Positions 1-11,582 of a DNA stretch of 11,582 bases are shown here, in pieces. Under the pieces are notes generated by a model. It saw nothing but the letters and a program-made list of their open reading frames with translations, searched no databases and was not told the origin of the DNA. The stretch lies in contig JAATGK010000185.1 of the NCBI GenBank assembly GCA_015654715.1, forward strand, positions 1 through 11,582, given 5' to 3'. The position numbers and the translations under genes were made by a program. This DNA comes from Alphaproteobacteria bacterium (GTDB taxonomy: Bacteria > Pseudomonadota > Alphaproteobacteria > Micropepsales > Micropepsaceae). Positions within the stretch are counted from its first letter, which is position 1; each line of letters starts with the position of its first letter.

Positions 1-2201
1 AGAAGATAGAGATCGAACACCGCTGCTTCGCCGCGCGCGATCGTCAAGGCTCGTTGCTTGGCCACTGGACGCACCGGCTTGAGACTGCCGGCGATCAGCT
101 TGGGATCGGATTTGAAATTGCGAAAATTGTCGACGATGCCGGAATGGTTGTCGATTGCCGTGGTTTCCCAGCCGGAGATGGCGGCGTAGTCGACCGCATC
201 GGCGATGCGCACGTTCTCCATATAGTTCTGCCAGCTCGCATAGGCCTTATGCCCGATCGCGAGGAACAGCGCTTCGGCGCTTGGAAATGCGTCCGTGAAA
301 TTCCAGCGCTTGAGGAACGCCTGATAAGCCGTCAGGATTTCCTGATGGTCCTGGAGGTCGTAGGCCTTGCCGCCGCGCGCCAGGATTTCCGCCACCATCA
401 GCGTGTGATTGTCGGGAACGGCGCAGCCTTCCATTTCGCCGTACTCGACGATGCCGCTGGCCAGCGTGTTGCGATAAGTGAAATGCTCCGGGTCCTGATA
501 AAAAGCGTCGTACCACTGATCGCCGGCGCCTTGGTGATCGTCCCACCAGCCGCCCCACGGCTCGTGATCGGAGCGATGCAGCACGGGATTGTAGGGCTCG
601 TACCACGCCTCAGCCGCATGAAATTCCGGCGACGACATGCCGTCGTTCATCAGGATGATGCGGCTTTCATCTTCCGCCCGCATCGCTTGCAGCACCGCAA
701 GCGTGTTGGGATCGGAAAAATCGGCGTTGTTCTCGTTCTGCAGCGTCCAATGGATGAGGCTGGGATGGCTGCGGAAGGCGCGCATCATCGCTTTGATTTT
801 CGCCATCACATAACGCTGGCAGAATTTGTCGGCCGCGGCTTCCGGCGGCAGCATCACGACGCTGTGCTGATCGACGTTGGTACCATCCGGAAGGCGCCCG
901 AAGGCGAATTTGCCGCCGCCCGGTTCCATGGCGCGGAGGAGCCCCAGCCGGTCCTGCGCGTCGAGCACGTCGTGCTTGCCGGGATTGCGATGAAAGGCGA
1001 GGCAATTGAGCCCCAACGCCTTGGCTTGACGCACTTCCTTTTCGGCGAGATCGGGCGTCGGCCACATCCCGTTGCCGCCCCAATAGCCCCAGGAAATTGC
1101 CGAATAGAGTTTGATCCGCCGCCCGTTGAGTTTGAACACCGCGTTCGTGCCAACACCTTCCGAACTGAACCAGCGAAAGCCGAAGGTCACGCGCCGGTGC
1201 GAGACGCCGCTCTTGGTCGTCAGCGCGGCATCGAGGCGATAGAGCTGCGGTGTTGCCAGATCCCACAGCGCGGGGTTCTTGGCGCGAATTTCGAATTCAA
1301 ACGTTGTGGCCGCCGCCGCGCTCTTGTGCCCCACGGCGATGATTTGCACCGCCAATGCTTTGCCGGATTTGGCCTCCGCAAGGCGCAGCGCGATCTGGCG
1401 TTCGATGTTCGTGAATCCCGGAGCCCCGGTCACGGTCACAAATGCGTGAACCGTTCCCGCTTTCGGCGTATTCAGCACCCAAGCGTCGGTGATGTGCGCG
1501 TCGAACGGATGGGCGGAAATCGTCAGCCCGCGATCCAGCCCACCGAAGCCGTGGCTGCGCTGGATTTTCACTTTGCCCCACGCAGTCGTGTCGCCGTCGA
1601 CCCAATCGAACCGCCCGCCGGGATTGGTGATGCGGATCGCCAAGAGATTTGGCCCGCCCGCCACCATCGCGTCGGTCAGGTCGCAGTCGAACGGCAGCTG
1701 TTCGAGGATCGAGTACCCGACCAGCTTACGGTTGAGATAAACCTCCGCCCGTTGGCGCGCCCCGCGCACGTTGAGGATCAGCCGCTGGTCTTTCAGCGCG
1801 GCCGGAATGTCGATCTCGCGCCACCACCACGACACGCCTTCATAGGCGCCATTTTGCAAGGTTTTGTCGGTATCGGCATAGGTGAATTCGGCGGGCGTAT
1901 ACGGACGGCTGCCGAACGTGCCCCAGTAATGCTGCTCGACGGTCGCGGGCAGAGTAACGTCGGTTCCGGCAAGTGCCCCCCATCCGCCGGTCGGCGGGTT
2001 CACAGGCAGAGCGGCGAGGTTCACATCTTCGGGAAGAAAAATCGCGTCGTCGCGCCACGGCGCTTCACGGTCGAGCCACAGGTGCCAGCCGCTGTCGGGG
2101 ATCGCGGTCGTATCGGCAAACGGCACGGGTTCGGCCTCGGCACAGGCAAGCGTCGCCGCCCCGGCCATACCGACAAACTCGCGACGGTTGATGCGCGCCA
2201 C
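1..2201 (-). CDS. Glycoside hydrolase family 2 protein, Tat-exported, 3' end beyond the window
   Basis: An uninterrupted minus-strand frame runs from a GTG at 2201 off the left edge; 733 residues are visible and the C-terminus is missing. The GTG is preceded by a strong GGGAGG five bases upstream. The N-terminus carries a twin-arginine motif (NRREFVG, R6-R7) and a short hydrophobic stretch ending near ACAEA, so export by Tat is likely. Residues about 45-200 look like the GH2 sugar-binding jelly roll (WWWREIDIP, then YLNRKLVGY), about 200-350 like the Ig-like domain, and from about 355 like the TIM barrel (FKLNGRRIKL, then DRLGLL). The HWTLQNEN motif gives the usual Asn-Glu acid/base pair (N489-E490). 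E586 in VEYGE is a candidate nucleophile. GH2 enzymes are exo-acting beta-glycosidases (beta-galactosidase, glucuronidase, mannosidase); the specificity cannot be read from this sequence. It is divergent from the GH106 pair and probably acts on the same glycan. Confidence 0.85.
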   Translation of the reverse strand, partial: MARINRREFVGMAGAATLACAEAEPVPFADTTAIPDSGWHLWLDREAPWRDDAIFLPEDVNLAALPVNPPTGGWGALAGTDVTLPATVEQHYWGTFGSRPYTPAEFTYADTDKTLQNGAYEGVSWWWREIDIPAALKDQRLILNVRGARQRAEVYLNRKLVGYSILEQLPFDCDLTDAMVAGGPNLLAIRITNPGGRFDWVDGDTTAWGKVKIQRSHGFGGLDRGLTISAHPFDAHITDAWVLNTPKAGTVHAFVTVTGAPGFTNIERQIALRLAEAKSGKALAVQIIAVGHKSAAAATTFEFEIRAKNPALWDLATPQLYRLDAALTTKSGVSHRRVTFGFRWFSSEGVGTNAVFKLNGRRIKLYSAISWGYWGGNGMWPTPDLAEKEVRQAKALGLNCLAFHRNPGKHDVLDAQDRLGLLRAMEPGGGKFAFGRLPDGTNVDQHSVVMLPPEAAADKFCQRYVMAKIKAMMRAFRSHPSLIHWTLQNENNADFSDPNTLAVLQAMRAEDESRIILMNDGMSSPEFHAAEAWYEPYNPVLHRSDHEPWGGWWDDHQGAGDQWYDAFYQDPEHFTYRNTLASGIVEYGEMEGCAVPDNHTLMVAEILARGGKAYDLQDHQEILTAYQAFLKRWNFTDAFPSAEALFLAIGHKAYASWQNYMENVRIADAVDYAAISGWETTAIDNHSGIVDNFRNFKSDPKLIAGSLKPVRPVAKQRALTIARGEAAVFDLYL

Positions 2202-2206
2202 GCTAT

Positions 2207-2212
2207 CCTCCC
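2207..2212 (-). promoter_or_regulatory. Shine-Dalgarno for the GH2 gene
   Basis: On the minus strand this reads GGGAGG, five bases before the GTG at 2201. It fixes that GTG as the start: the Tat motif begins at residue 5 from here, and a later start would remove it. Confidence 0.75.
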
Positions 2213-2386
2213 TGACGGTCGCGAATCCGGCGTTCTGCGACGCCGTGGACACACGCAAAAAATACACCCAGCTTCGCGGCCATTGTTGCGTTAGCATGAG
2301 TGATCTAAAGTGCGCAATATAGAACAGAAAAGCGCCAACTTCGATCAACACCAAACATCAACCGGGGCATCAAAAGACCTCGGACC

Positions 2387-2398: not shown

Positions 2399-5300
2399 GT
2401 GCCGTTCACCACCGCCAAGCGCCTGTTTTGGCTTGCCTTACTCGCTTCGGCCGCGGTGATTGCCCCGGCTGATGCGGGTGGCAAGCCGGCCGACGCGCTG
2501 GCCCGTGGCTTTGTCGCGCCGCCGCAAGCCGCCCGCCCGCGCACCTTCTGGCCGTGGATGAACGGCAACGTCACCAAGGACGGCATCGCCAAAGATCTTG
2601 CCTGGATGCATCGCGTCGGCATCGCCGGCATGCCAGCGGTCGATGCCGCGATCGACACGCCGACAGTGGTGGAGCATCGCGTCCCTTATCTCTCCGACGA
2701 ATGGAAAGACATCTACCGCACCGCCGTAAGTACGGCTGACAAATACGGCATGGAGATCGCCATCGAAGGCGCGCCCGGCTGGAGCATGACCGGCGGCCCA
2801 TGGGTAACCCCGCAAGAGGGCATGAAGAAACTGGTGTGGAGCGTCACGGCGGTGGAAGGCGGCAAGCCTTTCCACGGCACGCTGCCGCAGCCGCCCGATA
2901 CGATCGGCCCATTGCAGAACGCGCCGCTGGCTGGTGACGAGCCGCCGACACCCAAGACCGCCGCGCTGCATTTCTATCGCGACAGCATCGTGCTCGCTTA
3001 TCGTACGCCTGTGGTCGAGCCGGTCATTGCCGCAGCGACCTGGAACGGCGGCAAGCTGGACATCAAACAACTGACCGACGGCGATTTGTCGAATGCGGTT
3101 GCGCTCACCGCGGCCGCTCCCGACGCCGATGTTTGGATCGCGCAGCAATTCAAGCAGCCCGCCACCATCCAGGGCGTCCGTCTCGGCATGACAGTGGCCA
3201 AAGCACTTGGTTACCGCGCGGTCGTGGAAGCCAGTGATGACGGCGAGGCTTGGCACTTTGTCGCCGAATTTCCGCCCGCGGCGCAGCTTCAACGCATGCA
3301 GATGGGCGAGCAGACGATTTCGTTTGCGCCGGTGACCGCGCGGATGTTCCGCATTGTCTTGAAACCGGCTGATCCTCTCCGCCGCAGCTATCGTCCGACC
3401 GGCGATGCCGCGCCAGGCCTTGTGTCCACCAACGCTGCGCCGGCGCCGGAGCGCGCCTATCAGATCCGCGAGTTGATGTTCCACGCCGCCGCTACCGTGC
3501 ACGAGTTCGAGAAGAAGGCGATGTTCGCCGCGCCGCCGCGCGATTTCTATGCGCTCGCCGCGGTGCCCGACTTCAGGCCCGGTTCGGCGATCGATCCCGC
3601 GGGCGTCGTCAATCTCACCGATCACATGAAGCCCGATGGCAGGCTCGATTGGACGCCGCCGCCGGGCAAGTGGACCGTATTGCGGCTCGGCTATGGGCCG
3701 GTCGGGGCGGAAAACCATCCGGCGCCACGTGAAGCCACCGGTCTTGAGGTCGACAAGCTCAACGCCGATCATGTCCGCACCTATCTGCAGAAGTATTTCA
3801 GCATTTATGAAGGCGCGGTCGGCCCAAACCTAATCGGTCAGCACGGCATCCGCTCGATCCTCATCGATTCCAGCGAAATCGGCCAGCAGAACTGGACCGA
3901 AAACGTCATTGCCGAGTTCAAACGCCTGCGCGGCTACGATCCCACGCCATTTCTGCCTGCGTTAACCGGCGCGGCAGTTGAAAGCCCGGTGTCGTCCGAC
4001 AAGTTCCTGTGGGATTTCCGCCGCACGGTGGAAGAGCTCCTCGCCGCCAATCATTACGGCGAGATCGTACGGTTTGCGCACGAACATGGGCTGCAGACCG
4101 AGGGCGAGGCGCTTGAAATCTACCGCCCGACCTTTGGCGACGACATGGAGATGCGCCGGTATTTCGATGTGCCGATGGCGGCGATGTGGACTTATGACAC
4201 CGACAAGTTTCCGGTCCAGCTCACCTATGAAGCCGACATTCAAGGCGCCGCCTCCGTCGCGCACATCTTCGGCCAGAATATTGTCGCGGCGGAGTCTCTG
4301 ACCAGCGACCGGCAGCCGTGGGCCTGGGCGCCGTCGGGTCTCAAGCGCTATGTCGATATGGAATTCGCGCGCGGCGTCAATCGCCTCTTCATCCACACCT
4401 CGGTGCATCAGCCGGTCGACAAAGCGCCAGGCCTGACACTTGCCGGTTACGGCCAGATGTTCAATCGCCACGAAGCCTGGGCCGGCATGGCTAAACCTTG
4501 GCTCGATTACATTGCGCGCGCCTCGTATCTGCTGCAGCAGGGCCGTTTTGCCGCTGACATCGCCTATTTCTATGGCCAGGAAGCCCCGCTCACCTCGCTG
4601 TTTGGCGAGAAGCGTGTCAGCGACGTGCCAGCGGGTTACGGCTTCGATTTCTTCAACAGTCAGGCGCTGAACGAGCTGTCGGTTGAAAATGGCGCACTGG
4701 TGGCCAAATCCGGTATGCGCTATCGCGTCATTTATCTCGGCGGCATGTCGGATCACTTGACGGTCAGTGTGTTGACCAAGCTGCGGACCCTCGCCGAAGC
4801 TGGTGCGGTGATCGTCGGCAAGCGCCCGCTGGAATCACCCAGCCACGCCGATACGCCGGAGGCCTTTGCCGCCGCCGCCGATGCGCTGTTTGGCACCACA
4901 GGCGAACCCGCGCCGCGCAGCGTCGGAAAAGGCAAAGTCTTCCCATCGGGCGTGCTGCCAGAAGCTCTCTCTGCGATCGACCTCAAACCCGATTTTACGG
5001 TCACCGGCACTGATGCGATGGTGCTGGACCTTCACCGCAAGCTCGCCGATGGCGATCTCTATTTCGTCGCCAGCCGTTCGCTCAAGCCGGAAAGCTTTAC
5101 CGCCAGTTTCCGTGTCGCTGGAAAAATCCCGGAGTTATGGGATGCCGTCACCGGCAAGTCCGCACCGGTATCCTATGCGATCAAAAACGGCCGCACCGAC
5201 ATCGCTCTCTCGCTGCCTGCCGATGGTTCGATCTTCGTCGTCTTCCGCAAGCCCGCTACGAAACCCGTTGTTACCTTGCACCCGACTGCCGAAACCACCG

Positions 5301-5773
5301 TCGCCACCATCGGCGGCGCCTGGACGGTTGCCTTCCAACCAAACCGCGGCGCCCCTGCATCGGTCACGCTGCCCACGCTATCGCCGTGGAATAAAAGCCG
5401 CGATCCGGCCGTGAAATACTTCTCAGGCGAAGGCGTCTACAGCAAAACCTTTACCCTGCCCGGCAAGCGGGGAGGCGCCCGTTACGTGCTCGATCTCGGC
5501 AATGTGAAAGAACTCGCCGAGGTCACGCTCAACGGCAAGCTGGTGGGTGCGGTCTGGGCGACGCCGTTCAAGCTCGACATCACCGCCGCCGTGAAGCCCG
5601 GTACCAACATCCTGAAGGTGAAAGTCGCCAATCTCTGGGTCAACCGCCTCATTGGCGACGCCCAACCCGGTGCCGAGAAACACACCTTTACCATCATTCC
5701 GACCTATCGCGCCGATGCGCCGCTGAAGCCGTCTGGGCTGATCGGGCCGGTCACGGTCAAACGCGTAGAATAG
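2399..5773 (+). CDS. GH106 family (alpha-L-rhamnosidase-like) secreted glycoside hydrolase, copy A
   Basis: A complete 1,124-residue protein starting at GTG. Residues 1-26 form a Sec signal peptide (KR, hydrophobic core, cleavage after ADA). The N-terminal motif W51-P-W-M-N-G-N and GWSMTGGPWVTP (128-137) are typical of GH106. GH106 enzymes remove terminal alpha-L-rhamnose, for example from rhamnogalacturonan side chains, with calcium dependence reported for the family. A discoidin-like beta-sandwich seems inserted at about 215-322 (LTDGD, EASDDGEAWHFVAEF). The central barrel includes DSSEIGQQNW (E493) and IVAAESLTS (E632). These two glutamates are 139 residues apart, close to the spacing I recall for the proposed catalytic pair of the Bacteroides enzyme BT0986 (not checked). 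Residues about 970-1124 form a GH2-type sugar-binding-like domain (GVYSKTF, LNGKLVGAVW, PYK/PFKLDIT). It is the likely first gene of a plus-strand operon with the paralogue 13 bp downstream. The GH106 call is firm; the exact linkage is not. Confidence 0.87.
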   Translation: MPFTTAKRLFWLALLASAAVIAPADAGGKPADALARGFVAPPQAARPRTFWPWMNGNVTKDGIAKDLAWMHRVGIAGMPAVDAAIDTPTVVEHRVPYLSDEWKDIYRTAVSTADKYGMEIAIEGAPGWSMTGGPWVTPQEGMKKLVWSVTAVEGGKPFHGTLPQPPDTIGPLQNAPLAGDEPPTPKTAALHFYRDSIVLAYRTPVVEPVIAAATWNGGKLDIKQLTDGDLSNAVALTAAAPDADVWIAQQFKQPATIQGVRLGMTVAKALGYRAVVEASDDGEAWHFVAEFPPAAQLQRMQMGEQTISFAPVTARMFRIVLKPADPLRRSYRPTGDAAPGLVSTNAAPAPERAYQIRELMFHAAATVHEFEKKAMFAAPPRDFYALAAVPDFRPGSAIDPAGVVNLTDHMKPDGRLDWTPPPGKWTVLRLGYGPVGAENHPAPREATGLEVDKLNADHVRTYLQKYFSIYEGAVGPNLIGQHGIRSILIDSSEIGQQNWTENVIAEFKRLRGYDPTPFLPALTGAAVESPVSSDKFLWDFRRTVEELLAANHYGEIVRFAHEHGLQTEGEALEIYRPTFGDDMEMRRYFDVPMAAMWTYDTDKFPVQLTYEADIQGAASVAHIFGQNIVAAESLTSDRQPWAWAPSGLKRYVDMEFARGVNRLFIHTSVHQPVDKAPGLTLAGYGQMFNRHEAWAGMAKPWLDYIARASYLLQQGRFAADIAYFYGQEAPLTSLFGEKRVSDVPAGYGFDFFNSQALNELSVENGALVAKSGMRYRVIYLGGMSDHLTVSVLTKLRTLAEAGAVIVGKRPLESPSHADTPEAFAAAADALFGTTGEPAPRSVGKGKVFPSGVLPEALSAIDLKPDFTVTGTDAMVLDLHRKLADGDLYFVASRSLKPESFTASFRVAGKIPELWDAVTGKSAPVSYAIKNGRTDIALSLPADGSIFVVFRKPATKPVVTLHPTAETTVATIGGAWTVAFQPNRGAPASVTLPTLSPWNKSRDPAVKYFSGEGVYSKTFTLPGKRGGARYVLDLGNVKELAEVTLNGKLVGAVWATPFKLDITAAVKPGTNILKVKVANLWVNRLIGDAQPGAEKHTFTIIPTYRADAPLKPSGLIGPVTVKRVE
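2548..2595 (+). repeat. Near-identical DNA tract shared by the two GH106 copies (copy A)
   Basis: This 48-bp tract matches 5918-5965 with a single mismatch (G at 2578, A at 5948). It encodes WPWMNGNVTKDGIAKD. Part of the match reflects protein constraint, but the shared codon choice also fits occasional gene conversion. Confidence 0.8.
5690..5730 (+). repeat. 41-bp identical tract shared by the GH106 copies (copy A 3' end)
   Basis: These bases are identical to 9057-9097 near the end of the second copy and encode TIIPTYRADAPLKP. The identity covers silent positions as well, unlike the surrounding sequence. Confidence 0.85.
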
Positions 5774-5786
5774 AAGAGAACACATT

Positions 5787-8700
5787 ATGGAACTCAGGAA
5801 GCGTTTCGTGCCGCTGCTGCTGATCTCGGCCGCGGTGATGTTTCCGGCTTCGGCCGGCCCCGATACGTTGTTGCGCGGCTTTCAAGCCCCGCCTTCGTCG
5901 GCGCGCCCAGGCGTCGGCTGGCCGTGGATGAACGGCAACGTCACCAAAGACGGCATCGCCAAAGACCTTCATTGGATGCACCGCGTCGGCATCACCGGGG
6001 TAGGGCTCGGCAGTGCCGCCATCGATACGCCGACCGTCGTCGAAAAGCGGCTCGAATACCTGACGCCGGAATGGAATGATGCCTTCCGTTATGCCATCGC
6101 CGAGGCTGCCAAGCTCGACATCTCGGTTGGTACCGGCGCCGCGGCGGGCTGGAGCATGACTGGTGGCCCGTGGGTCACACCCGAACAAGCGATTAAAAAG
6201 CTGGTGTGGAGCGCGACACCGGTCGACGGCGGCAAGGCGTTTCACGGCGCTCTGCCCAAGCCGCCGGATGTGATTGGGCCGATTCAAAATGCGCCGTGGT
6301 TCGGTGATCATCCGCCGACGCCCAAAACCGCGAACCTGCATTTCTATGTCGATGCCGTGGTGCTGGCCTATCGCGCCACCGTCGAGGAACCCAAGATCAG
6401 CGACGCCGTGTCCTCGTCCGGCAAGCTCGATGCCAAACTGCTTACCGACGGCGATCTGTCGAAAGGCTTCATTCTCACCCCGGCAACGCCGGACGGCGAT
6501 GTCTTCGTTGCGGTGAAATACAAGAAGCCTGCCACCATTCAGGGTTTGACGCTCGGCATGATCGTGCCGATGGCGCTCGGCTATAAGGCGGTGGTGGAAG
6601 CCTCCGACGATGGCGATGCTTGGCGTCCGGTCGCTGAATTTCCGCAGGCCTCGCAATTGGCACGCATGCAGATGGGCGAGCAGACCATCGGTTTTGCACC
6701 CGTCACGGCGCGTTATTTCCGCTTGGTGCTGAAAGCCAATGCGCCGATTCCGGTCAGCTACCGTCCCAAAGGAGATGCCGCGCCGGGTCTCATCACCGAC
6801 AATTCCAAGCCGGCCCCGAAGCGCAGCTATGACATTCGCGAGGTGGCGTTTCGCGCCGCCGCCACGGTGCACGAATTCGAGAAGAAAGCGATGTTCGCCG
6901 CCCCGCCGCGCGATTTCTACGCGATTGCCGGCACCCGGGAAATCGCACCCGGCACCGCCATCGACCCAGCCGCCATCGTCGACCTCACCGCCAAAATGAA
7001 GCCGGACGGGACGCTCGATTGGACGCCGCCGCCGGGCAAGTGGATCGTGCTGCGCCTCGGCTATTCGCCGGTCGGCACCGAGAACCATCCGGCGCCGCTG
7101 GAAGCCACCGGTCTCGAAGCCGACAAGCTGAACACGGCGCATATGCGCGCCTATGCCGAGCGGTATATCGACAATTTGCAGACCATCACCGGCCCTGATC
7201 TGATGGGCAAGAAGGGGCTTACCGGCATCGGGCTTGGCTCGACGGAAATCAGCGAGCAGAACTGGACCGAAACCATCATTTCCGATTTCAAAACGGCGCG
7301 CGGCTATGATCCGACGCCATGGCTGCCGGCATTGACCGGTCTGATGGTGAAATCGCCCGACGATACCGACAAGTTCCTCTACGACTGGCGCCGTACGGTG
7401 GAGGAGTTGCTGGCCAAGGCGGAGTACCAGGAATTCTGCAAGGTCGTGCACGAGCACAATTTGTCGTGCGGCGGTCAGGCGCTGGAAGATCATCGCCCGA
7501 CCTTCGGCGACGACATGGAGATGCGCCAGTGGTTTGATACCGTCGGCGCCGCCATGTGGACCTACAACAGCGACAAGTTCCCGGCGATTTTGGCATATGA
7601 AGCCGACGTCGAAGGCGCGGCCTCGGCGGCGCACATCTACGGCGCCAATATCGTCAACATGGAAACGCTGACCAGCGATCTGCAGCCCTGGTACTGGGCG
7701 CCGCGCGATACCAAGAAGTGGATCGATTTGATCTTCGCGCTCGGTGGCAACAAACTTGGCATCCATACCTCGGTGCATCAACCGATCGACAAAGCGCCGG
7801 GCCTGTCGCTCGGGCCATTCGGGCAGTTCTTCAACCGCCACGAAACCTGGGCGGAGATGGCGCGGCCATGGCTCGATTATCTGTCGCGGGCTTCGTTCCT
7901 GTTGCAGCAGGGCAAGTACGTCGGCGACATCGTCTATTTCTACGGCCAGGAAGCGCCGATGGTGTCGTTGTGGGGCAACAAGCGCGTCGAAGGCGTGCCG
8001 CAAGGCTATGCGTTCGATTTTGCCAATGCCGAGGTGCTGCTCAACCGCCTGTCGGTCGTGAACGGCGAACTCGTCACCACAACTGGCATGCACTATCGCA
8101 TCCTCTATCTTGGCGGTTCGTCCGACAAGATGACGCTGAAGGCGCTGAAGAAGATCCACGAACTGGTCGATGCCGGTGCGGTGGTGGTGGGTAAGCGTCC
8201 CAGTTCGACTCCTAGCCTCGCCGACGATCCGGCGGCGTTCGCGGCCGAATGCGACGCCGTGTTCGGCAAGGACGGCACGGCGCACGATCTCGGCAAGGGC
8301 AAGGTGTTCCCGTCGGGTTCGATGGCAGAAGCGTTTACGGCGCTGAGGGTTGCGCCTGACTTCGCTTACGACCAGAAGGACGTCAAGCTCCTCTACATTC
8401 ACCGTCATCTCGCCGATGGCGACGTCTATTTTGTCGCCAACCGTGAGGCCAAGCCGGTCAATGTCACCGCCACTTTCCGTGTTGCCGGCAAGGCAGCGGA
8501 ATTGTGGGATGCTCAGACCGGCAAGACCGCGCCGGCGTCCTACAACATCGCCGATGGCCGTACCGCCGTGCCGCTGGCGCTGCCCGCCAACGGCTCGACC
8601 TTCGTGGTGTTCCGCAAAGCGGCCAAGGCGCCGTCGCGGACGATCAAGACGCCGGTCGAAACCACGGTCGAAACGATCGATGGCGCCTGGACCGTCGCCT

Positions 8701-9146
8701 TCCAGCCCGGCCGCGGCGCGCCCGCAGCGGTCACACTGCCCGCGCTCAGCCCGTGGAATGAAAACACCGATCCCGGTATCAAGTACTTCTCTGGCATCGG
8801 CACCTACACCAAGACCTTCACGCTACCTGCCAAGGGCGCCGGGACCTATGTGCTTGATCTCGGTGATGTGAAGGAACTGGCCGGCGTCGTGCTCAACGGC
8901 AAGCCGCTCGGCACGGTGTGGACGACACCCTACAAGCTCGACGTTACGCGCGCGCTCAAACCCGGCAAGAACGTGCTCGAAGTGAAGATCGCCAATTTGT
9001 GGGTCAATCGCCTCGTCGGCGATGCTCAGCCCGACGCCAAGGAGAAATACACCTTCACCATCATTCCGACCTATCGCGCCGATGCGCCGCTGAAGCCATC
9101 GGGGCTGCTGGGGCCGGTGCGCGTCTTGCGGCTGACGCAAAAGTAA
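5787..9146 (+). CDS. GH106 family glycoside hydrolase paralogue, copy B, with altered active-site residues
   Basis: A complete 1,119-residue protein starting at ATG 5787, 13 bp after the stop of copy A, with a purine-rich, modest ribosome site (AGAAGAGAA, ending six bases upstream). Residues 1-23 are a Sec signal peptide (RKR, hydrophobic core, cleavage after ASA). The domain order is that of copy A: GH106 N-terminal motif W45-P-W-M-N-G-N, GWSMTGGPWVTP from G121, discoidin-like insert at about 209-316, barrel, and C-terminal sugar-binding-like domain from about 965. The two presumed catalytic glutamates are kept (E487 in STEISEQNW, E626 in VNMETLTS). Five acidic residues of copy A are changed: D82 to S76, E123 to G117, D490 to G484, E568 to G562 and E570 to Q564. 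The frame is intact throughout, so it is under selection as a protein. It could act on a different rhamnoside linkage, or be a weak or binding-only enzyme. It is probably co-transcribed with copy A. Confidence 0.82.
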   Translation: MELRKRFVPLLLISAAVMFPASAGPDTLLRGFQAPPSSARPGVGWPWMNGNVTKDGIAKDLHWMHRVGITGVGLGSAAIDTPTVVEKRLEYLTPEWNDAFRYAIAEAAKLDISVGTGAAAGWSMTGGPWVTPEQAIKKLVWSATPVDGGKAFHGALPKPPDVIGPIQNAPWFGDHPPTPKTANLHFYVDAVVLAYRATVEEPKISDAVSSSGKLDAKLLTDGDLSKGFILTPATPDGDVFVAVKYKKPATIQGLTLGMIVPMALGYKAVVEASDDGDAWRPVAEFPQASQLARMQMGEQTIGFAPVTARYFRLVLKANAPIPVSYRPKGDAAPGLITDNSKPAPKRSYDIREVAFRAAATVHEFEKKAMFAAPPRDFYAIAGTREIAPGTAIDPAAIVDLTAKMKPDGTLDWTPPPGKWIVLRLGYSPVGTENHPAPLEATGLEADKLNTAHMRAYAERYIDNLQTITGPDLMGKKGLTGIGLGSTEISEQNWTETIISDFKTARGYDPTPWLPALTGLMVKSPDDTDKFLYDWRRTVEELLAKAEYQEFCKVVHEHNLSCGGQALEDHRPTFGDDMEMRQWFDTVGAAMWTYNSDKFPAILAYEADVEGAASAAHIYGANIVNMETLTSDLQPWYWAPRDTKKWIDLIFALGGNKLGIHTSVHQPIDKAPGLSLGPFGQFFNRHETWAEMARPWLDYLSRASFLLQQGKYVGDIVYFYGQEAPMVSLWGNKRVEGVPQGYAFDFANAEVLLNRLSVVNGELVTTTGMHYRILYLGGSSDKMTLKALKKIHELVDAGAVVVGKRPSSTPSLADDPAAFAAECDAVFGKDGTAHDLGKGKVFPSGSMAEAFTALRVAPDFAYDQKDVKLLYIHRHLADGDVYFVANREAKPVNVTATFRVAGKAAELWDAQTGKTAPASYNIADGRTAVPLALPANGSTFVVFRKAAKAPSRTIKTPVETTVETIDGAWTVAFQPGRGAPAAVTLPALSPWNENTDPGIKYFSGIGTYTKTFTLPAKGAGTYVLDLGDVKELAGVVLNGKPLGTVWTTPYKLDVTRALKPGKNVLEVKIANLWVNRLVGDAQPDAKEKYTFTIIPTYRADAPLKPSGLLGPVRVLRLTQK
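5918..5965 (+). repeat. Near-identical DNA tract shared by the two GH106 copies (copy B)
   Basis: Partner of 2548-2595, with one mismatch in 48 bp. It encodes the conserved GH106 N-terminal motif. Confidence 0.8.
9057..9097 (+). repeat. 41-bp identical tract shared by the GH106 copies (copy B 3' end)
   Basis: Partner of 5690-5730, with no mismatch over 41 bp. It lies in the last 90 bases of the second copy. Confidence 0.85.
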
Positions 9147-9201: not shown

Positions 9202-10131
9202 ATGCGATTGTTGGTGGTCGGGGCTGGAGCAACCGGCGGTTATTTCGGCGGGCGTTTGGCCGCGGCCGGGCGTGATGTGACGTTTCTGGTGCGTCCGGGG
9301 CGAGCCACTCGGCTCCAGGCGACCGGCTTGCGGATCGTCAGCCCGCACGGCGATGTTAGCCTGGCGCCGAAATTGGTGACAGCCGGCATCATCCCGGCAC
9401 CGTTCGATGCGGTGCTGGTGACGGTCAAGGCCTATTCCCTCGCCAAGGCCATCGACGATTTTGCGCCCGCCGTTGGTCCGGACACGATGGTCATTCCCGT
9501 GCTCAACGGCATGCGCCACATGGAACTCTTAGCCTCGCGCTTTGGCGATAAGGCCGTCGTGGGAGGATTATGTCGGATTGCGGCGACCATTGACGCCGAG
9601 GGGCGCATCGTGCAGCTCGCCGGCTTCCACGATCTCGTTTATGGCGAGCGGGACGGGACTGTGTCGCCCAGGATCGAAACGCTCGATGCCGCCCTGCGCG
9701 GCGCCGGATTCGATGCCCGGCTGTCGGGGCGGATCGGCGCCGAGATGTGGGAAAAATGGGTGATGCTGGCGGCGCTCGGCGGCGTCACCTGTCTGATGCG
9801 CGGCACGATCGGCGACATCGAAGCGGCCGCCGGCGGGCGCGAATTCGCGGCGGCTTTTCTGAACGAAGTTGTCGCCGTCGCCGAAGCGCTTGGCCATCCG
9901 CCAAGCCCGGCGGCCCGTGCCGAGCTCACATCGCTGTTGCTCGCCAAAGGCTCGGCACTGGCGTCATCGATGTATCGCGACTTGCAGAATGGCAACCCCA
10001 TCGAGGCCGATCAGATCATCGGCGACCTCTTGATCCGCGCGCGGCAAGCCGGCGTTGCGACTCCACTCCTGGCTGCGGCGTACGCGTCGCTTTGCGTCTA
10101 TCAGAACCGATTGCACGCCGTCAGAGCTTGA
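9202..10131 (+). CDS. Ketopantoate reductase family (PanE/ApbA-like) NAD(P)H-dependent oxidoreductase
   Basis: A complete 309-residue cytoplasmic protein of normal length for the family. The N-terminus is a Rossmann fold with the dinucleotide motif GAGATGGYFGG (G7-x-G9-x-x-G12). K76 (TVKAY), N102 (LNGM), K185 (EKWVM) and E268 (NGNPIEAD) line up with the family's conserved and catalytic positions (Lys176 and Glu256 in the E. coli enzyme). SSMYRDLQ at 255-262 is the usual start of the C-terminal substrate-binding helix. The family reduces 2-dehydropantoate to pantoate for coenzyme A synthesis, but many bacteria carry extra paralogues of unknown substrate. The usual Arg in the GRxTE segment is Asn here, so I do not give the name panE. 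It lies 55 bp after GH106 copy B with no terminator seen, so read-through from the glycosidase operon is likely. Its 3' end overlaps the convergent GH28 gene by 11 bp. Confidence 0.85.
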   Translation: MRLLVVGAGATGGYFGGRLAAAGRDVTFLVRPGRATRLQATGLRIVSPHGDVSLAPKLVTAGIIPAPFDAVLVTVKAYSLAKAIDDFAPAVGPDTMVIPVLNGMRHMELLASRFGDKAVVGGLCRIAATIDAEGRIVQLAGFHDLVYGERDGTVSPRIETLDAALRGAGFDARLSGRIGAEMWEKWVMLAALGGVTCLMRGTIGDIEAAAGGREFAAAFLNEVVAVAEALGHPPSPAARAELTSLLLAKGSALASSMYRDLQNGNPIEADQIIGDLLIRARQAGVATPLLAAAYASLCVYQNRLHAVRA

Positions 10132-11582
10132 CCGGCTGCAGCGGCGCCCCCGGAGCGGGCGAGGCGAACACGTCGCTGGCCTTGAGGTCCGCAACGTCGT
10201 CGGTGACCACCGCCGGCCGCCCATCGGGCGCCGAACACCGCATGTCGATGGCGTGCATCGTGATGGCGCGGACGTGGCGGAGATAGAATCCCCACGCCGG
10301 CATCGGGCCGAACATGTCGGGATCGGGATAGCCGCCTTCGTTTTCCGGCGGTTTGACGCCCGCATCGGCTGCCGTGCCGCCGCCGGGATTGAGGGTGCGG
10401 ATGTTGCTCAGCGCAACGTCTTCGATCAGCCCGCCGGGGACGCCCGAAACGATCGAGCAATAGCGCTTGTCGAGGAACTGGCAGTCGATGTCGCTGATTG
10501 AGACGCGCCGCAGCACCGCCATCGGCGCCCCTTTCGGCGCCCGCCGCCGGTCGCCGAGACGCAGGAAAATCGGCGCCGCCGTGCAATCGCGCATCACCAG
10601 ATTCGATACCACCACATCTTCCAGCACCGCGCCGTCGACGCTTTCAAGCGCTAGTCCGTTGCAGCAATCGAACACACAATTCGACACCGCGATATTGCGA
10701 TAGCCGCCGGTCGATTCCGTGCCGAGCTTGATGCGGCCGCTGGTCAGGTGGGGCAGGATGTCTTTCAACTGTTCGCGCTTATAGGTCGCGTCGAGCAGCG
10801 AGCCCACCGCATATCCCGAAACAAAGCAGTTTGTGATACTGACGTTCTCGGTCGGCCGCACTTCGCCCAGCGCATAGGAGCTTTTCAGCACGATGGCGTC
10901 GTCGGTCGGCGAATTCACCGAGCAATTCGAAATCCGGCAATTGCGCACCACATCGATGTCGATGCCGTCGCGATTGGTGTCGATTTTCAGATTGTCGATG
11001 GTGAGATTGTCGACGCCGGTCGCCAGAATGCCGAAGTGGCCGCCGCGATAAATCGTGATGTCGCGCAGGGTGATGTTGCGGCTGTTCTTGATCGCGATCG
11101 CCTTGTTGCCGAGGCCCGCCATTTTCTTCACCGACTCGGTGTGGTCGGCAATGCGTGCCTTCAGCATGGCGTCCTGGGGAAGGTCGTCGCGACCGGCGCC
11201 GATCGACCACGGCGCATTGGGGCTGACGTTGGTCAGGCCCTCGCCGTCAATCATGCCGGGGCCGAGGATCGCGACGTCCTCGATGCTCTCGCCCCAGATC
11301 AGGCTGTTGTGGAAATAGGAGTGGCCGTAGTCCTGATAGCTTTCGTATTTGTTCGGCTCGGCCGCATCGTATTTGCCTTTGTGCTTGGCCGGGTCGGCTG
11401 CCACCAGCACCGCGCCGGATCCGAAATAAAGCGTCACATGGCTCTTCAATTGCAGCGAGAAGGAGAGGAAGCGCCCCTTCGGCAAAAACACCGTGCCGCC
11501 GCCGGCTGCTGCTGCCGCATTGATCGCCTTTTGGATCGCCGCCGTATCGAGCGCGCGCCCGTCGCCTTTGGCACCGAATTTG
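10121..11582 (-). CDS. GH28 family / pectate-lyase-superfold beta-helix protein, 5' end beyond the window
   Basis: A minus-strand frame is open from the right edge to a TGA at 10121-10123; about 486 residues are visible, and the start and any signal peptide lie outside. The first visible residues, FGAKGDGRALDTAAIQKAINAA followed by GGGTVFLPKGRF, are the classic N-terminus of GH28 and pectate-lyase-3-type beta-helices, so only a few dozen residues are missing. Asn/Asp-rich coils follow. DTNRDGIDID (10953-10983) matches the GH28 NTDG motif and PTDDAIVLKS (DD at 10898-10903) the second acidic motif. The third motif, usually GHG, is not seen; YAVGSLLDATYKRE stands there. GRIKLGTESTGGYRNI (about 10690-10740) is the RIK motif. 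GH28 members hydrolyse polygalacturonan or rhamnogalacturonan. This one belongs to a divergent branch whose substrate I cannot name. It is probably periplasmic or secreted. Confidence 0.8.
   Translation of the reverse strand, partial: KFGAKGDGRALDTAAIQKAINAAAAAGGGTVFLPKGRFLSFSLQLKSHVTLYFGSGAVLVAADPAKHKGKYDAAEPNKYESYQDYGHSYFHNSLIWGESIEDVAILGPGMIDGEGLTNVSPNAPWSIGAGRDDLPQDAMLKARIADHTESVKKMAGLGNKAIAIKNSRNITLRDITIYRGGHFGILATGVDNLTIDNLKIDTNRDGIDIDVVRNCRISNCSVNSPTDDAIVLKSSYALGEVRPTENVSITNCFVSGYAVGSLLDATYKREQLKDILPHLTSGRIKLGTESTGGYRNIAVSNCVFDCCNGLALESVDGAVLEDVVVSNLVMRDCTAAPIFLRLGDRRRAPKGAPMAVLRRVSISDIDCQFLDKRYCSIVSGVPGGLIEDVALSNIRTLNPGGGTAADAGVKPPENEGGYPDPDMFGPMPAWGFYLRHVRAITMHAIDMRCSAPDGRPAVVTDDVADLKASDVFASPAPGAPLQPVKL

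Follow-up and report, generated by a model that had tools for sequence, protein, structure and literature searches.

The stretch of DNA analyzed here (the window: 11,582 nucleotides, contig JAATGK010000185.1 of assembly GCA_015654715.1, from an alphaproteobacterium of the family Micropepsaceae) contains two adjoining plus-strand genes for proteins of glycoside hydrolase family 106 (GH106), termed copy A and copy B, whose products share about 64% identity (Table 1). This report concerns copy B, in which several acidic residues found in copy A are replaced. Both products matched the PF17132 model, copy B with 884.6 bits and copy A with 936.7 bits (curated cut-off 29). Copy B comprises GH106, F5/8-type, and jelly-roll domains, is predicted to adopt a (beta/alpha)8 catalytic fold as in the GH106 proteins RHA-P and BT0986, and starts with a hydrophobic stretch that, judged by eye, is likely a signal peptide.

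Table 1. Genes of the window and residues of copy B discussed in the text, with the equivalent residues of copy A and BT0986 assigned by alignment.
Feature	Position	Strand	Remarks
GH2-like glycosidase	3..2354	-	divergent; cut by window end
GH106 copy A	2399..5773	+	1124 residues, intact frame; AlphaFold2 model with a predicted local distance difference test (pLDDT) score of 89.7
GH106 copy B	5787..9146	+	1119 residues, intact frame; AlphaFold2 model, pLDDT 90.6
B S76 (A D82)	6012..6014	+	strand 2
B G117 (A E123)	6135..6137	+	strand 3
B G484 (A D490)	7236..7238	+	BT0986 D458, calcium ligand; lost
B E487 (A E493)	7245..7247	+	BT0986 E461, general acid; kept
B C551 and C561	7437-7439 and 7467-7469	+	Cys pair; 18/18 in copy B clade, 0/107 in others, not in P0027
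B G562 and Q564	7470..7478	+	Q564 = BT0986 E538, calcium ligand; lost
B G587 (A M593)	7545..7547	+	strand 6; two residues ahead of BT0986 E561 position
B E626 (A E632)	7662..7664	+	BT0986 E593, general base; kept
ApbA/PanE-like gene	9202..10131	+	2-dehydropantoate reductase family
GH28-like pectin hydrolase	10121..11581	-	cut by window end

Three samples of GH106 proteins were compared. The main alignment held 126 proteins (P0002-P0127), drawn from the best 120 of 3207 and the best 120 of 3852 matches and leaning to near relatives; it was divided into the copy B clade (n = 18), the early branch P0027 (n = 1), and the remaining 107 proteins, window copy A included. The second sample covered the BT0986-like lineage (best 120 of 1298 proteins), while the third consisted of 15 GH106 frames taken from loci, with the distant ones realigned. 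It includes the minus-strand frames L003, L017, L020, L021, L035, L037, L039, and L043, and omits L009, L014, L019, and L042, since the same genes are covered by L005, L007, and L003. Positions of BT0986 were transferred to copies A and B by counting along the alignments.

An earlier, sequence-only reading of the window had listed five acidic residues of copy A as lost in copy B, and the alignment placed all five pairs as proposed, at a constant offset of six residues (D82/S76, E123/G117, D490/G484, E568/G562, and E570/Q564). Within the copy B clade, S76, G117, G484, and Q564 are each present in 18/18 proteins and G562 in 16/18, and the copy B of Rhizomicrobium electricum (L005, an isolate genome) has identical letters at the substituted positions. 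Among the 107 others, position 82 is occupied by D (105) or E (2), position 490 by D (100) or G (7), and position 570 by E without exception (107), whereas position 123 is more variable (D 67, E 15, N 15, A 7, F 2, S 1), as is position 568 (Y 87, Q 9, E 7, H 2, V 1, M 1). Three of the five positions (82, 490, and 570) are thus conserved acids of near relatives, and position 123 is usually acidic or Asn. E568, by contrast, is a trait of copy A, because 87/107 relatives carry Tyr there, so the claim of five lost acids was rejected as worded. In the BT0986-like sample, position 82 is Gly and position 123 is Asn (each 120/120); therefore, acids at these two sites are not needed family-wide. The idea that most relatives simply share the residues of copy B was dismissed by the invariance of E570 in the 107 others.

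Two of these positions coincide with known metal ligands. According to an excerpt of PMC6828813, from which all statements citing this paper are taken, BT0986 uses E461 as the general acid and E593 as the general base, and coordinates calcium through D458, S459, E538, E561, and E593, while RHA-P lacks the E561 ligand. By alignment, D458 and E538 correspond to D490 and E570 of copy A and to G484 and Q564 of copy B, S459 corresponds to S491 of copy A and S485 of copy B, and E561 to A595 and A589, respectively. Copy A therefore carries the canonical calcium-site residues D490, S491, E570, and E632, whereas copy B keeps the serine ligand and lacks D458, E538, and E561. Both carboxylate replacements, G484 and Q564, are fixed in 18/18 members of the copy B clade. 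On the other hand, S485 and the two catalytic glutamates, E487 and E626, whose retention had been pointed out in the sequence-only reading, are invariant across all 126 aligned proteins. In the BT0986-like sample, the equivalents of D458, S459, E461, E538, and E593 were found in 120/120 proteins each. Gln at the E538 position also occurs in 3/15 frames of the third sample (L039 and L044 of one genome, and L040), all of which keep D458; the notion that this replacement is unique to copy B was hence discarded. Altogether, 19/126 proteins, both window copies being counted in the total, lack both D458 and E538, and among all sequences compared this joint loss with retention of the acid and base was confined to the copy B clade and P0027. 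Altered metal binding in copy B, one of the options raised earlier, is thus well supported by the alignment, as two of the substituted residues match BT0986 calcium ligands.

A separate pattern was seen among relatives of copy A. All 7/107 proteins with G490 (P0020, P0022-P0025, P0038, and P0039) bear E or D two residues earlier on that strand, at position 488, as if the calcium carboxylate had been relocated; E488 and D490 occur together in P0026. This bears on the possibility that copy B is an ordinary alpha-L-rhamnosidase with the specificity of copy A, in which the metal is bound by, or replaced with, other residues, e.g., the clade-specific E490 or backbone groups. Such compensation is conceivable given the shifted E/D in 7/7 of the D490G proteins, the Gln tolerated at the E538 position in the three frames mentioned above, and the acidic residues gained by the copy B clade, namely E490 (18/18; near the acid) and E546 (15/18). 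Moreover, the Ram106B rhamnosidases keep few of the BT0986 ligands, yet are metal-dependent (PMC6828813). However, in copy B the lost ligands are replaced by Gly and Gln, and Gly also occupies, in 18/18 copy B clade proteins, the site to which copy A relatives appear to have moved their carboxylate. Two adjacent copies of one specificity are possible, but would need a reason, e.g., dosage. We consider this explanation quite unlikely.

The changes in copy B extend beyond the calcium site. Of the 29 substitutions defining its clade, 10 are to glycine, 8 of these in barrel strands; bulky or polar residues have given way to glycine on most strands of the barrel, and the net side-chain loss in the strands amounts to about 850 cubic angstroms. 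Control clades also showed appreciable glycine fractions (3/10, 2/6, 7/50, and 7/59; 49 clades tested, these being among 40 listed including that of copy B), and the glycine excess of copy B is consequently not unique when taken as a fraction. A test for clade-specific losses was based on 271 columns conserved at ≥95% in the 107 others, a loss being scored when the residue was gone in >80% of the copy B clade; 11 columns (11/271) were lost. The cysteines C551 and C561, located near the lost E538 ligand, form a candidate clade-specific disulfide.

A tree was built from 72 of the 126 proteins; in it, the 18 copy B proteins formed one clade (Shimodaira-Hasegawa-like approximate likelihood ratio test support 100), whose sister was P0027 (support 98), and those members of the clade that bear names belong to Rhizomicrobium. 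P0027 already has G44, G73, G75, G117, G482, G484, G562, Q564, G587, and G658, while D76 and V654 are retained and the Cys pair is absent. Since it holds only part of the copy B changes, the rebuilding was stepwise. The ratio of nonsynonymous to synonymous substitution rates (dN/dS) between the window and R. electricum, estimated by the NG86 method, was 0.140 for copy B and 0.148 for copy A, and copy B is therefore about as constrained as copy A; the YN00 method, applied to three comparisons, gave 0.068 for full-length copy B, 0.061 for full-length copy A, and 0.076 for the copy A barrel. That the change in copy B is not drift, as had been asserted from the conserved flanks of the substitutions, is supported, because the residues are fixed in 18/18 proteins and dN/dS is as low as 0.14. 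After duplication, one gene of the pair may diverge freely, and the source assembly, in 518 contigs and 74% complete, is fragmented, so drift under relaxed constraint or an artefact of assembly might be invoked. Nevertheless, the identical residues shared by 18/18 proteins and by the R. electricum isolate, together with the low dN/dS, make this a highly improbable explanation. Among 96 genomes of the order, copy B was matched in 11 and its type was recognized in 2, i.e., the source genome and R. electricum. A PF17132 search of 398 genomes in the phylum gave matches in 7, of which 6 exceeded the cut-off, whereas a degenerate DNA pattern for G-x-G-S-x-E turned out to be non-specific (116/385 genomes).

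R. electricum has the identical order of GH2, copy A, copy B, ApbA-like, and GH28 genes, and its cluster also includes RhaT, a TonB receptor, more GH28s, a third GH106, RhaD, and a galactarate/altronate dehydratase. GH106 and GH28 enzymes both belong to the breakdown of rhamnogalacturonan I (RG-I), as stated in an excerpt of PMC8002723, and the locus in this soil bacterium is read as a rhamnogalacturonan and L-rhamnose utilization cluster. The source genome harbors a third GH106 (L003) on another contig, with canonical residues. The R. electricum cluster further holds a 930-residue frame (L048:4831-7620, minus strand) that matches both an FGGY sugar kinase and RhaA, the L-rhamnose isomerase, and that appears to be a fusion of the two enzymes.

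The presence of copy B and the ApbA-like gene varies among otherwise alike loci. In L004, L006, and L008, the GH2, copy A, and GH28 genes are adjacent and no match to a separate copy B or ApbA-like gene was found, while in L051 (genome G051) copy B is missing and copy A is directly followed by a frame that matches the ApbA-like gene in its first letters. As L051 retains the ApbA-like gene, this looks like a loss of copy B. L488/D490 marks the copy A equivalent of the three loci that carry the ApbA-like gene (window, L005, and G051), and E488/G490 that of the four lacking it (L004, L006, L007, and L008, with L007 differing in gene order), which is a correlation only, because the seven loci are related. 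The 2-dehydropantoate-reductase-like gene adjoins copy B within a pectin locus, where its product might act on a 2-keto sugar acid.

Our best reading is that copy B is an intact, selected GH106 paralogue beside copy A, with a rebuilt pocket from which the canonical calcium carboxylates have gone, and that it probably remains a hydrolase. More specifically, we see about an even chance that this hydrolase is secreted, functions in the absence of the canonical calcium site, and has a pocket reshaped for a different pectin fragment. Copy B would then work without this site in a pocket that is larger or otherwise reshaped, its substrate would be a rhamnogalacturonan fragment that copy A cannot take, e.g., rhamnose with a side-chain sugar or an acetyl group, and its product would feed the L-rhamnose pathway shared with copy A. 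We lean towards catalysis because both glutamates are kept. Several points weigh against this interpretation. With ethylenediaminetetraacetic acid (EDTA), inhibition was almost complete in all four GH106 enzymes that were tested, and BT0986 and RHA-P are also metal-dependent (PMC6828813), so copy B could be inactive for want of its metal site. Copy B has larger residues at neighboring positions (L/I74 and L/M625), and the barrel might therefore have contracted rather than been hollowed out. Finally, the searches performed turned up no activity data for a copy B clade protein; nor did any of the titles and abstract openings listed describe a GH106 clade of this sort.

The metal requirement of the tested enzymes (PMC6828813) also lends some weight to the view that copy B, having lost two calcium ligands, is a non-catalytic pseudoenzyme that binds carbohydrate or serves as a scaffold, capturing pectin fragments for GH2, GH28, and copy A. 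The replacement of D82 and further polar barrel residues and the maintenance of an intact frame under selection would agree with this. Yet neither the acid nor the base has been lost in any of the 18 clade members, although released catalytic constraint would be expected to remove them, and just the 11 conserved columns were replaced; hence, we regard a pseudoenzyme as rather doubtful. Returning to a catalytic copy B, a more elaborate version remains tentative: the clade might have given up the active-site metal entirely and, with a glycine-lined barrel around an unchanged acid/base pair, act as a glycosidase on a bulky or branched pectin sugar, a C551-C561 disulfide replacing the stabilizing ion.

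GH106 is a little studied family that takes part in pectin breakdown and is metal-dependent in the cases named in PMC6828813. A neighboring pair with and without the calcium site, sharing the acid and base, constitutes a natural experiment on the role of the metal in this family. Furthermore, a PF17132 match alone is no predictor of a calcium-type alpha-L-rhamnosidase, as illustrated by the 19 proteins without D458 and E538.

Compared with known systems, copy B departs from BT0986, the Bacteroides thetaiotaomicron GH106 acting on chain B of rhamnogalacturonan II (PDB 5MQM/5MQN/5MWK), in that the ligands D458, E538, and E561 are changed to G, Q, and A. RHA-P, the alpha-L-rhamnosidase of Novosphingobium sp. 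PP1Y (PDB 6Q2F), keeps the D458/E538 ligands and bulky strand residues, where copy B has G484, Q564, and glycines. BT4145, an RG-I alpha-L-rhamnosidase (NF049897), belongs to the family common to both copies, and its role in RG-I fits the locus (PMC8002723); with 244 bits for copy B and 257.5 bits for copy A, however, both lie far under the curated cut-off of 1300, and by that model neither is therefore the BT4145 equivalent. The Ram106B rhamnosidases of thermophiles are GH106 members in which most of the BT0986 metal ligands are replaced, which indicates that the GH106 metal site can be rebuilt, and they are stimulated by Co, Ni, Mn, and Mg and inhibited by EDTA (PMC6828813). They keep D458 and have a general acid that does not match E461 (PMC6828813), whereas copy B keeps E461 and loses D458.
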